A stretch of DNA of 64,000 bases from the NCBI RefSeq assembly GCF_000454545.1, contig NZ_CM002139.1, positions 231,148 through 295,147 on the forward strand, read 5' to 3'. The position numbers and the translations under genes are program-made. Source of the DNA: Xanthomonas cassavae CFBP 4642 (GTDB lineage Bacteria; Pseudomonadota; Gammaproteobacteria; Xanthomonadales; Xanthomonadaceae). Below, piece by piece: positions 12,065 through 64,000 of this stretch (positions are counted from its first letter, which is position 1; every line of letters starts with the position of its first letter). The notes under the pieces are model-generated. The model saw nothing but the letters and a program-made list of their open reading frames with translations. It was not told where the DNA came from and did not search any database.

Positions 12065-12335
12065 CGTTGCACCGGAGCGCCTGTTGGCAGGGCTCGTCAT
12101 GACGGCGACAACGCTAGAACACCAAACAGAACTACTGCGCGACCGCCAGGCGGGCCCGGTCGGTGCTCGGAATCCTCATGTACCACTCGTACACTGCGGT
12201 TCCTGCGCGCCGCCCGAACCCACCTGGCGACCGCTCGCTACGTTCTGTTTGTCGTTCTTGGGAGCTACTCCCCTTCTGCGCCCGATTCTGCGTGGCCGGC
12301 GCAGGCACGTCAATCCAGCCGGATACAATGGGCGG

Positions 12336-60023: not shown

Positions 60024-60275
60024 ATGCGCGTCCCAATTGACCACGCATCCGACATCGGTGCCTATGTCCGCGCAGTGCGCAAGGCACAAGGCCTACGTCA
60101 GGACGACCTGGCAGCGCTGGCCGGCACCAGTCATGTGGTGCTTGGCAATGTCGAGCGCGGCAAGGACACCGTGCAACTGGGCCGGGTGTTCGAAGTGCTG
60201 CGGCAATTAGGCATCCAGGTCCAGCTGGACCTGCCGGTGGAGTTGCCGGCTCCGGTAGCCAGGCACGTCGAATGA
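60024..60275 (+). CDS. hipB: HipB-type XRE antitoxin/repressor
   Basis: An 83-residue protein with a helix-turn-helix at 19-49 (GLRQDDLAALAGTSHVVLGNVERG) and a C-terminal tail rich in Pro and Val (GIQVQLDLPVELPAP) as in HipB. It should repress its own operon through the three operators upstream and hold the HipA kinase. Its stop overlaps the hipA start by four bases. It looks intact although its partner is not. Confidence 0.9.
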   Translation: MRVPIDHASDIGAYVRAVRKAQGLRQDDLAALAGTSHVVLGNVERGKDTVQLGRVFEVLRQLGIQVQLDLPVELPAPVARHVE

Positions 60276-61485
60276 ACACCGTCGATGCGCCACGCACCCT
60301 GGAACTGTGGCTGGAAGAGCGCCGCATCGGTGAGCTGCGGGAGCAGGGCAACCTGTGGGCGCTCGCGTACGACCCAGCGTGGCAAATGGACGGCTTCGAT
60401 CTGTCTCCCGCGTTGCCACCTCGCACGGGTCAGATCATTGATGGCGGTAGTCAGCGCCCGGTGCAGTGGTTCTTCGACAACCTGCTCCCCGAAGAGGGCG
60501 GACGCCGGTTGATCGCCAGCGATGCCGGCATCGATGCGGCCGATGCCTTCGGCCTGCTGCAGCGGTTCGGCCCGGAGTCGGCCGGCGCGTTGACCGTGCT
60601 GCGGCCAGGCCAGCAACTGCCGCCGCCGGCGCTGCAGCCGCTGAGCGATGTCGCGCTTTCTGAGCGTATTCGCGCCTTGCCCCGGCAACCGCTGACCCAT
60701 GACGCACCCAAGCGCATGTCGTTGGCAGGCGCCCAGCACAAGCTGGCAGTGGTGCTGGAGGCGGGGCAGTTGTGGGAGCCGGTGGGCACGGCTGCGTCCA
60801 CCCATATCCTCAAACCCGACCACGAACATGTGGACGACTACCCGCACAGCGCGGTCAATGAATGGTTTTGCATGCAGCTGGCCGCTGCCTGCGGACTGCC
60901 GGTGCCACAGGTGGCCGTGCGCCGCGTGCCGGAACCGGTGTATCTGTCCGCCGGTTCGACCGCATCGGCGATGGCCTGCAGGCACAGCGCCGTTATGCGC
61001 TGGACGGTTGCCAACTGCTGTCCCTGGATCGTGTTTACAACTACCAACAAGCCACCATCAACACCTTGCGCGCGCTCGAACGCATCAGCCGCATGCCTGC
61101 GGCCAACCTGAGCTTCCTGCGCGGCGCCAATGGCTGGGAACTAGCCCCGCATTACGACCTGCTCAGCACCAGCGTGTACACGGCTCCGGATTGGGGCTTG
61201 GACGAGCTGGTTTTTCCGATGGGTACCGCTCGCCGTTATGCCGCCATCGGTCGCGATGCTGTGGCGGCGTTCGGCCACTCCATCGGCGTACCAGCGAAAC
61301 TGACATTGCGGCATCTGGACGAACTGACGACCGCGATCAGGCGAGAGTCGCATGCCGTATTGCAGAGCTGCGAACAAGGCGCTACGCATGCAGTCGATCC
61401 TGGCGAAGCGCGCCTGCTACGGCAGATTGTGTTCGGGCCTGTGGTGGATGCATTGAGTGCAGTGTCGGCATCGGCTTTACATTAG
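60272..61485 (+). pseudogene. hipA: Broken HipA serine/threonine kinase toxin
   Basis: HipA phosphorylates glutamyl-tRNA synthetase and causes dormancy. The first frame (60272-60950) holds the N-subdomain (LWLEERRIGELREQGNLWALAYD, DNLLPEEGGRRLIA) and the ATP-binding part (MSLAGAQHKLAVV, STHILKPD). A one-base deletion at about 60946 moves the text to another frame (VRRFDRIGDGLQAQRRYALDGCQLLSL). That frame runs to 61485 through GWELAPHYDLLSTSVY. A second lesion removes the catalytic loop: SRMPAA is followed directly by NLSFLRG, where relatives carry about 20 residues including the GNxDxHxKN active-site Asp. The kinase cannot work. Confidence 0.88.
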
Positions 61486-61923: not shown

Positions 61924-63039
61924 TCACCGATACGGCCCCGGCCCACGCCAGACCGGTTCGCCCTGGCGGTAGACCTCCATCATGTTGATGACCTCGCGGG
62001 CGTCGCCGATGCTCTTCAGTTCCGGCGAGTCCGGCGGCAGCAGGCGGCATTTGCTGGAGCCGCGTTTGAGTGCGACCTCCAGCGGGCAGACCATGCGTTG
62101 CTGGGTGCCGGGCAGGATGATGGCGATCTCCTGCATGCCCTGTTCCTTCCACACCCGCAACTGGGTTTCGCTGCGCACATCGTAATACACCTGGTAGCCG
62201 CCGATATCCATGCTGGGCTGGGCGTTGCGGCGGTCGTTGCGGCGGCCCTGGCTGATGGTGGGCGTGTACGAAGTGCCGTCTTCGGCGGCGTCGGCCGGTT
62301 CGTCGAGCATGCCCGGTGGACGCCCGGTCCAGGTTTCCGGGCGGCGCTGCGGCGGCGATGACGGTTCGGCCGGTGGTTGCGGCGGAGTGGGGCGGTGCAC
62401 GGGCCGGGCCGGGCGCTGTTCGGTCAGTCCGCCACTGCGCGTGCTGCCTTGCGGCGGCACCGGGTTCCTGGCGTTCCGCACCAGCGTGGATTGCACTGGC
62501 GAGGCCGCGGGTGGCGGCTGTACCGGTGCAGGCGTGGGCGAGGGCGGGGTGGGCGTTGGCGACGGGGTGAGTTGCTGGGGTTGGTCGGTGTCGCCGACAA
62601 AGTCCACCTTGGTGCGGCCACCGCTGGCCGAGCCCTGCGGCGGCGTCGCCGTGGGCGTGGAGGCCGACAGCAGGATCAGCAGCATCAGCACATGCAGCAG
62701 CGCGCTGATCAGCGCGGCGATCCACGGCTCGAGGCGTTCGATCAGCGGTTCGCTGCGTGGCAGCCAGTCGCTGGGGTCCAGCTGGACATGCAGCAGTTGC
62801 AGCGTGTCGTCGCGCACACGGTAGACCAGGACGTACGGGGTCTGTTTGACCACCCATTCGCGGGTGCCCGGCACCCGGCCGGCGCGGCCACGGCCGGGTT
62901 GTTCGGCCAGCGTGCGGGTGGCGTGCAACACCTGCCGTGCCATCGCCGCCGCCGCAACCGGGTTGAGCGCGTGATAGTGATCCTGGGCGTGGGCGAGCTG
63001 CTTGGCGGCCGGGACGGTCCACTCACGCCGCAACATCAA
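61924..63039 (-). CDS. ParE-like toxin domain fused to a membrane helix, proline-rich linker and C-terminal domain
   Basis: A continuous 371-codon frame with four parts. Residues 1-92 are a RelE/ParE-type domain (REWTVPAAKQLAHAQDHYHALN, PGTREWVVKQTPYVLVYRVRDDTLQLLHVQ). Residues about 104-125 are one hydrophobic helix (WIAALISALLHVLMLLILL). Residues 126-265 are rich in Pro, Thr and Gln, like the periplasmic spacer of TonB. Residues 266-371 form a compact domain (GGYQVYYDVRSETQLRVWKEQGMQ, IILPGTQQRMVCPLEVALKRGSSKC) with two Cys. The order predicts a cytoplasmic toxin domain tethered to a periplasmic domain. No ATG splits the frame between the first and second parts. It overlaps a 68-residue antitoxin-like gene by 17 bp. 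Function is unproven. Confidence 0.75.
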   Translation of the reverse strand: MMLRREWTVPAAKQLAHAQDHYHALNPVAAAAMARQVLHATRTLAEQPGRGRAGRVPGTREWVVKQTPYVLVYRVRDDTLQLLHVQLDPSDWLPRSEPLIERLEPWIAALISALLHVLMLLILLSASTPTATPPQGSASGGRTKVDFVGDTDQPQQLTPSPTPTPPSPTPAPVQPPPAASPVQSTLVRNARNPVPPQGSTRSGGLTEQRPARPVHRPTPPQPPAEPSSPPQRRPETWTGRPPGMLDEPADAAEDGTSYTPTISQGRRNDRRNAQPSMDIGGYQVYYDVRSETQLRVWKEQGMQEIAIILPGTQQRMVCPLEVALKRGSSKCRLLPPDSPELKSIGDAREVINMMEVYRQGEPVWRGPGPYR

Positions 63040-63229
63040 CGCCCCATCCGGCGAACAGTGCGGTGAGCTGCGCCGGCGCGACGAAGGCGCCCTGGTCGGC
63101 GGCAGCGATGCCTTCGAGCACGGCCGCCTGGAAGCTGGCCTCGGTCACCGCATGCAGCACGTCCTGCCACCCTGCGGTGTCGGGCAGCGTGTCGATCAGC
63201 GTATGGGCGTGATGCTTGATGGCAGACAT
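63023..63229 (-). CDS. Small antitoxin-like protein upstream of the ParE fusion
   Basis: A 68-residue acidic, helical protein (MSAIKHHAHTLIDTLPDTAGWQDVLHAVTEASFQAAVLEG, then FVAPAQLTALFAGWGVD). The position, size and 17-bp overlap with the ParE-like gene identify it as the probable antitoxin. No DNA-binding motif is obvious; it resembles short ParE antitoxins of the DUF-type addiction modules. The start at 63229 is chosen; 29 upstream codons in frame look non-coding. Confidence 0.7.
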   Translation of the reverse strand: MSAIKHHAHTLIDTLPDTAGWQDVLHAVTEASFQAAVLEGIAAADQGAFVAPAQLTALFAGWGVDVAA

Positions 63230-63478: not shown

Positions 63479-64000
63479 ATGCCCGCTGCTGCCATCGCGC
63501 CTTTTACCCCGTACCTGTCGATGGCGGCCATCGCCTTCATTTATTACCGGCGCATCCGCCGTAGCTTCGGCCGCCAGCAGTGGAAGCCGGTGGGCACTGC
63601 GGTGCGTGCGACTGTGCTGGTCATCGCCGCCGCTGCGCTGGCATTTGCGGTGTACGGCTTGCCGCAGGTGCGGCTGGGGATCGCGCTGGGAGCGGTGGCC
63701 GGCATCGGGCTGGGCGCCCTGTCGCTGCGCTACACGCATGCCGAATGGGCGCAGGGCAGCGGCTGGTACACGCCCAACCCGTGGATCGGCGCGGCGCTGA
63801 TGCTGGTGCTGCTGGGCCGGCTGGCCTGGCGCTGGGCCTCGGGCGCTTTCAGCCAGGGTGCGGCCGCTGCCGGATCGCAGGCCAGCCCGCTGACCCTGGG
63901 GATTGCGGCCGCGCTGGTGCTGTATGCGCTGGTGCACGTAGGTGGGCTGTGGTGGCGTCTGCGCCAGCTGCGCCTGCAGGCAGGCGCGGCGGGGTCGGCG
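63479..64000 (+). CDS. DUF1453-like inner-membrane protein, cut by the window edge
   Basis: The frame starts MPAAAIAPFTPYLSMAAIAF and is open to the last base (174 codons), so the C-terminus is outside the window. There are about five hydrophobic helices. YYRRIRRSFGRQQWKPVGTAVRAT is the Arg-rich loop after the first helix, as in DUF1453/CcdC-like proteins. Function is unknown. It is divergent from the ParE fusion operon. Confidence 0.65.
   Translation, partial: MPAAAIAPFTPYLSMAAIAFIYYRRIRRSFGRQQWKPVGTAVRATVLVIAAAALAFAVYGLPQVRLGIALGAVAGIGLGALSLRYTHAEWAQGSGWYTPNPWIGAALMLVLLGRLAWRWASGAFSQGAAAAGSQASPLTLGIAAALVLYALVHVGGLWWRLRQLRLQAGAAGSA

Follow-up and report, generated by a model that had tools for sequence, protein, structure and literature searches.

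How does a toxin domain come to stand at the head of an envelope-type protein, and does it still act as a toxin there? The question is raised by a fused gene in a 64,000-nucleotide stretch of the Xanthomonas cassavae CFBP 4642 genome (contig NZ_CM002139.1, positions 231,148 to 295,147, forward strand; hereafter the window), whose product joins a ParE-like domain, a transmembrane (TM) helix, a proline-rich spacer and a C-terminal domain, and whose start is overlapped by a small antitoxin-like gene. The data presented here indicate that the ParE domain was joined once to an older gene that persists unfused in other Lysobacteraceae, that it has lost a conserved residue of free toxins, and that the antitoxin-like partner was kept. 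We propose, with a probability of roughly 55%, that a TonB/TolA-like envelope protein exchanged its short cytoplasmic tail for a ParE toxin, which became domesticated there with its antitoxin as partner, a function that we infer.

All four parts of the fused protein lie in a single open frame on the minus strand (Table 1). A preliminary description of the window had given this layout, and the frame, the profile match, the hydropathy and the counts of proline and cysteine bear it out. The N-terminal domain matches the Pfam family ParE_toxin at residues 5-84 with 57.1 bits against a cut-off of 23, and PDB entry 6xrw by sequence (E 2.7e-5). It is followed by the only hydrophobic stretch of the protein, in which windows above 1.6 start at residues 102-113; the TM helix is assigned from this Kyte-Doolittle profile and its position rather than by a dedicated TM predictor. 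Proline accounts for 34 of the 140 residues from 126 to 265, while the sole two cysteines both fall in the C-terminal domain and are invariant in a 43-row alignment (A1). The last 94 residues, which lie within a C-terminal region whose structure the preliminary description had proposed to predict, gave a confident AlphaFold2 (AF2) model, with a mean predicted local distance difference test score (pLDDT) of 88.3. The start codon is more likely ATG 63036 than TTG 63039, which would give 371 residues and an overlap of 17 bp, because [P.] boreopolis (L057), Stenotrophomonas sp. MMGLT7 (L060) and the nearest free toxin-antitoxin pair found (L089) all show this ATG with an overlap of 14 bp; the overlap described earlier is real, and its length is more likely 14 bp than the 17 bp first given.

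Table 1. Parts of the fused gene and its antitoxin-like partner, in window coordinates.
Feature	Position	Strand	Basis or remark
Fused gene, 370 aa (ParE, TM helix, Pro-rich spacer, C-terminal domain)	61924..63036	minus	ATG 63036
ParE-like (RelE/ParE superfamily) domain, residues 1-92	62761..63036	minus	Pfam PF05016
Single TM helix, about residues 103-125	62662..62730	minus	Kyte-Doolittle peak 2.66
SHLS motif S111-H115-L122-S126, TonB/TolA type	62659..62706	minus	as defined in the accessible text of PMC12215075
Pro-rich spacer, residues 126-275, predicted periplasmic	62212..62661	minus	Pro count
C-terminal domain, residues 276-370, Cys 317 and Cys 330	61927..62211	minus	alignment and AF2 model
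Antitoxin-like gene, 68 aa, 14 bp overlap with the fused gene	63023..63229	minus	open in all 31 rows analysed

The fusion is present in all 35 genomes of the window's genus that were searched. In 34 of these, residues 1-370 match as one piece, which excludes a sequencing error or frame artefact, including the error near residue 95 that had been considered earlier; in the other (G218), the gene forms two overlapping pieces in two frames and is broken within the Pro-rich spacer. The gene of X. phaseoli ATCC 49119 (L064) is likewise broken inside the spacer, with the antitoxin and ParE part still open, and a second, partial copy (residues 79-370) occurs in X. prunicola (L061, at the locus edge) and at G220:C26. 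The nearest named relative of the window is X. codiaei (96%; records very close to the window's genome may be missing), and the set analysed includes an orthologue from X. euvesicatoria (L055), near kin of X. perforans. Plasmid or phage cargo was rejected for lack of any match in the plasmid or phage collection, and a known defence gene for lack of a PADLOC match; in PHROGs, a family of unknown function (phrog_2455) matches the ParE part at E 1.1e-5, with further matches weaker.

Beyond the genus, the part of the protein that follows the ParE domain (the C-part) leads a life of its own. It was found in 49 of 198 Lysobacteraceae genomes (E <1e-40), with ParE in front in 11 and without it in 38, a number that includes two matches cut before the relevant end (G104 and G186) and one in two pieces (G158). 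Two further matches start inside the C-part, at residue 49 in G174 and residue 51 in G194, and no ParE was found in the loci concerned (L087 and L092). Where the start can be read, the stand-alone proteins begin about 10 residues ahead of the point that corresponds to fused residue 93, and none of the 30 distinct stand-alone loci has a ParE or antitoxin match (E 1e-5), 28 of these loci extending at least 0.7 kb upstream and two (L068 and L069) being cut there. Two bacteria that bear the name Xanthomonas and lie outside the 35-genome set also belong here: in X. massiliensis (L066) the gene stands alone, and at the locus of Xanthomonas sp. AmX2 (L069) the sequence breaks off before the informative point. 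Matches to the C-terminal domain among 274 genomes of the class numbered three, all in Lysobacteraceae. Judged from these sequences, what follows residue ~93 goes back to a Lysobacteraceae gene that predates the fusion. A gene tree built from 69 C-part rows places all 33 fused ones in a single clade (support 100/100), which indicates that the fusion arose once, in an ancestor shared by the window's genus, [P.] boreopolis and Stenotrophomonas sp. MMGLT7. The preliminary description had held that homologues split at about residue 95 would speak against a fusion. Such homologues do exist outside the fused clade; they are separate genes with no ParE found beside them, and therefore show how the fusion arose rather than falsifying it.

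No listed gene is common to all five stand-alone regions in a comparison of eight regions, although two of them (L074 and L080) have a block of genes in common. The window's genome contains no second copy of the C-part at E values up to 10. It does contain one long paralogue (L104; G000:C6:2610505-2612280), a protein of 617 residues with the TM His, a two-Cys C-terminal domain and a different, unassigned N-terminal stretch. A TonB_C-domain protein of 140 residues (L107:10333-10755, plus strand) lies near this paralogue, on the opposite strand.

What kind of envelope protein received the ParE domain is suggested by its TM helix. TonB and TolA carry a motif in this helix, Ser-X3-His-X6-Leu-X3-Ser (SHLS), whose Ser and His are reported to touch ExbB or TolQ in the accessible text of PMC12215075, and whose residues are described as well conserved and essential for activity in that of PMC8928145. 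The window protein has an exact SHLS motif, and all four residues are present in each of the 30 distinct fused rows. Among the 28 readable stand-alone rows we counted the Ser in 26, the His in 28, the Leu in 21 and the last Ser in 13; the corresponding counts for 14 paralogues are 12, 14, 13 and 0. Overall, all 72 readable rows have the His, and 68 of these 72 have the Ser at -4. Residues were counted by alignment, in rows unselected for His, with L064 (broken) and L068 and L069 (both cut before the TM helix) set aside. Scanning 8868 overlapping hydrophobic windows recovered six exact SHLS motifs, a chance check that is indicative only, because its 13 loci mostly contain members of this family. 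Matches below the cut-off link the TM helix and spacer to the tolA_full profile in the window protein (E 0.0099; 15.1 bits against a cut-off of 59.45), in L014 (E 0.031) and in L031 (E 1.4e-6), and to the TonB profile PRK10819 in L060 (E 0.0017); no tolA or TonB profile match was seen in the six paralogues scanned. Its motif and layout thus give the envelope protein the look of an energy transducer of the TonB/TolA type.

Several observations weigh against this assignment. The fused protein has no TonB_C match in Pfam at E<=1, and TonB_C was excluded for its C-terminal domain by profile comparison (hhalign probability 0.4%). Foldseek, VIA-align and sequence-profile searches of the PDB returned no useful match for the fold of this domain, which is not proof of a new fold. 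In this genome, moreover, the TM His comes without the Ser in TolA and in two TonB-type proteins, and two other TonB_C proteins lack the TM His, as judged by eye. Because the C-terminal domain fails the TonB_C and TolA profiles, we would say that the protein may work like TonB or TolA, not that it is one. As for partners, the genome holds a TolA above cut-off, nine TonB_C places and five MotA_ExbB matches, so that possible stators exist; none of them adjoins the fused gene. Two of the MotA_ExbB-type genes (G000:C6:2360316-2360669 and 2641153-2641515) have no TonB_C match listed close by and are possible stators for TonB-like proteins that lack TonB_C.

Next, we compared the ParE domains of 31 fused rows with 24 free toxins encoded at loci with the antitoxin and with 12 other ParE proteins. 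One of the 24 is truncated; the 23 that can be read all have a His at position 86, the one of the nearest free pair included, as do 11 of the 12 other ParE proteins, whereas none of the 31 fused rows has it; there the position is Leu in 25 and Val in 6. The fused proteins thus lack the C-terminal motif His of classical free ParE/RelE toxins. Position 89 follows a similar course, with Arg or Gln in 22 of 23 free toxins, 11 of 12 other ParE proteins and only 10 of 31 fused rows, and the ParE_toxin profile is covered from 2 to 82 of its 89 positions in the fusion as against 1 to 89 in the L089 toxin. In YoeB, a relative by fold, the C-terminal His83 is described as the general acid (PMC3814384, accessible text), and from its place in the protein position 86 is probably the equivalent of this residue. 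The accessible texts of PMC7180214 and PMC11980606 describe ParE proteins as lacking RelE's main catalytic residues, and gyrase inhibition might therefore not depend on the His. The domain has not been left to decay: the ratio of nonsynonymous to synonymous substitution rates (dN/dS) is 0.177 for residues 1-88, the lowest of five regions, as compared with 0.219 (C-terminal domain), 0.291 (spacer), 0.294 (TM stretch) and 0.342 (antitoxin, residues 1-63). These values are averages over non-independent pairs (pairwise Nei-Gojobori, pairs with dS of 0.05-2) of 31 rows, namely the window and 30 of the 32 named loci L033-L064, with L061 (cut) and L064 (broken) excluded.

The antitoxin-like gene is open in all 31 rows analysed, and in L064 as well, which supports the earlier description of a membrane-tethered ParE with a conserved small partner. 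Its product matches no Pfam or NCBIfam family and, by profile or fold, no PDB entry; an AF2 model of the monomer has three helices (residues 3-13, 21-45 and 52-61; mean pLDDT 84.3, predicted template modelling score 0.62). The ribbon-helix-helix (RHH) fold has an N-terminal strand. In the model, helix 3-13 occupies the place where an RHH protein would carry that strand, although a monomer model leaves a dimeric RHH possible. The antitoxin family is patchy, being present in 27 of the 274 genomes of the class, the window's own included. The antitoxin profile led to 29 loci beyond those already known (L144-L172), of which 18 contain ParE at E 0.01 or better, as presence within the locus rather than measured adjacency to the antitoxin; the other 11 have no such match, five of them (L144, L156, L169, L170 and L171) showing short ParE-like pieces that were not counted. 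One of the 29 (L172, G000:C6:3316507-3316665) is a second antitoxin of this family in the window's genome; the ParE-like toxin that goes with it is separate and free, and has retained the motif His. In the nearest free pair (L089) the toxin is 60% and the antitoxin 63% identical to those of the window. A phage-integrase-type gene (68.3 bits) adjoins this pair and, from this one case, the donor pair may have been mobile.

Collectively, these results can be read as a history of domestication. ParE from a toxin-antitoxin pair would have been joined once to an existing stand-alone envelope gene, taking the place of the short cytoplasmic N-terminus of its product. That product would have had, behind this N-terminus, an SHLS-bearing TM helix docking to ExbB or TolQ as in TonB and TolA, a Pro-rich rod spanning the periplasm and a two-Cys C-terminal domain gripping an envelope partner. 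In the fused form the ParE part, held under strong purifying selection, has probably lost its classical toxicity and most likely serves in the cytoplasm as a docking domain to which the small antitoxin protein binds, such that an old toxin-antitoxin pair may now regulate or anchor an envelope protein. The presence of the fusion throughout the genus, as contrasted with the patchy distribution of the antitoxin family elsewhere, counts in favour of this history. More tentatively, ParE and its antitoxin might act as a switch through which the state of a TonB/TolA-type rod, driven by the proton motive force, is relayed to the cytoplasm, or the reverse. The preliminary description had left a choice between a toxin controlled at the membrane by envelope signals and a toxin scaffold reused as a sensor; reuse of the scaffold is the better option, and signal control of an active toxin finds no support in the sequences, since none of the 31 fused proteins has the motif His, which all 23 readable free ones possess.

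A different reading, proposed in print for ToxM (PMC11980606, accessible text), is that ParE still works as a toxin together with its antitoxin. The antitoxin gene, open and overlapping in all 31 rows, agrees with this, as does purifying selection on ParE. We nevertheless consider a working toxin unlikely, given the loss of the motif His in every fused protein, the presence of the fusion in all 35 genomes of the genus when the antitoxin family is patchy elsewhere, the lack of PADLOC, plasmid or phage matches and the existence of the C-part without any toxin, observations that bear on toxicity indirectly. A further idea is that a neutral chance deletion created the fusion, retained only for a needed C-part with ParE as a passenger: the C-part is indeed the older, widespread unit in Lysobacteraceae, but ParE is the most constrained of the five regions and the antitoxin is constrained too, which leaves this idea very improbable.

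It is also conceivable that ParE is a domesticated tail on an envelope anchor unrelated to TonB and TolA, in which S-x3-H reflects helix packing only. A C-terminal domain unlike TonB_C, with no solved fold matching it, and a last SHLS Ser that varies outside the fused clade would fit such an anchor; an invariant TM His with a nearly invariant Ser at -4, the TonB-like order of TM helix and Pro-rich stretch, and weak tolA or TonB profile matches on four members would not, and we regard it as rather improbable. If domestication of ParE on a TonB/TolA-like protein is correct, it shows a toxin-antitoxin pair becoming a fixed part of cell-envelope machinery in all 35 genus genomes searched, and the published ToxM would be re-read as a domesticated envelope component instead of a defence toxin. 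What becomes of a toxin after domestication would then be testable, because one bacterial family still contains free toxins of this module alongside the fusion and the envelope protein without ParE.

Other features of the window were noted in passing. A divergent membrane-protein-like gene without a Pfam match adjoins the antitoxin (63479-64000, plus strand) and continues in L073. A hipB-like gene followed by hipA lies at 60024-61485 (plus strand), with hipA split over overlapping frames (60272-61111 and 60862-61485) such that it looks frame-broken. The Xanthomonas small RNA sX9 is found at 12178-12253 (plus strand; Rfam RF02228, 80.8 bits).

Literature searches on RelE/ParE toxins, Xanthomonas and TonB-like proteins showed nothing on this fusion, by title or opening of the abstract, among the papers listed, and nothing was found for 'transmembrane repetitive protein' in Xanthomonas; among work from 2024 on, a search for membrane toxins of the BECR (Barnase-EndoU-ColicinE5/D-RelE) fold or ToxM returned only Gerdes 2025 (mBio, PMC11980606). 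The accessible text of that paper, which contains no mention of TonB, TolA, Lysobacter or a stand-alone form, describes ToxM as a BECR-fold N-terminal domain followed by a TM helix, a disordered stretch and a structured C-terminal domain, with an upstream antitoxin, ToxR; it takes X. perforans as its example and treats the function as speculative, the passage of foreign DNA being one idea.

How, then, does the fused gene compare with known systems? Free ParE pairs such as L089 have the same gene order, 14 bp overlap and antitoxin family, but their toxin ends soon after the motif, keeps the His and has neither TM helix nor C-part. The long paralogues of Lysobacteraceae (510-617 residues) have the TM His and a related two-Cys C-terminal domain in common with it, and differ by a distinct, unassigned N-terminal stretch of ~90 residues before the TM helix and a longer spacer. 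With TonB and TolA, as portrayed in the accessible texts of PMC12215075 and PMC8928145, it has in common an N-terminal SHLS-bearing TM helix, a Pro-rich or long spacer and a C-terminal globular domain; it departs from them in a C-terminal domain that is not TonB_C or TolA by profile, in the ParE domain predicted on the cytoplasmic side and in having no adjoining stator gene. The closest likeness is to ToxM-ToxR, compared here by its published description: genus, domain order and a small upstream antitoxin gene agree, the N-terminal RelE/ParE domain is by profile a BECR-fold domain, and a TM helix, a disordered stretch, a structured C-terminal domain and a small antitoxin gene directly upstream are all present. 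The X. perforans antitoxin is called an RHH regulator in that description, with which the all-helical monomer model of the window's antitoxin sits badly. The layout as such being known, the fused gene belongs to the published ToxM kind; to this kind the present analysis adds a likely origin of the fusion, a TonB/TolA-like anchor, the loss of a conserved toxin residue and a reading of the toxin as domesticated.
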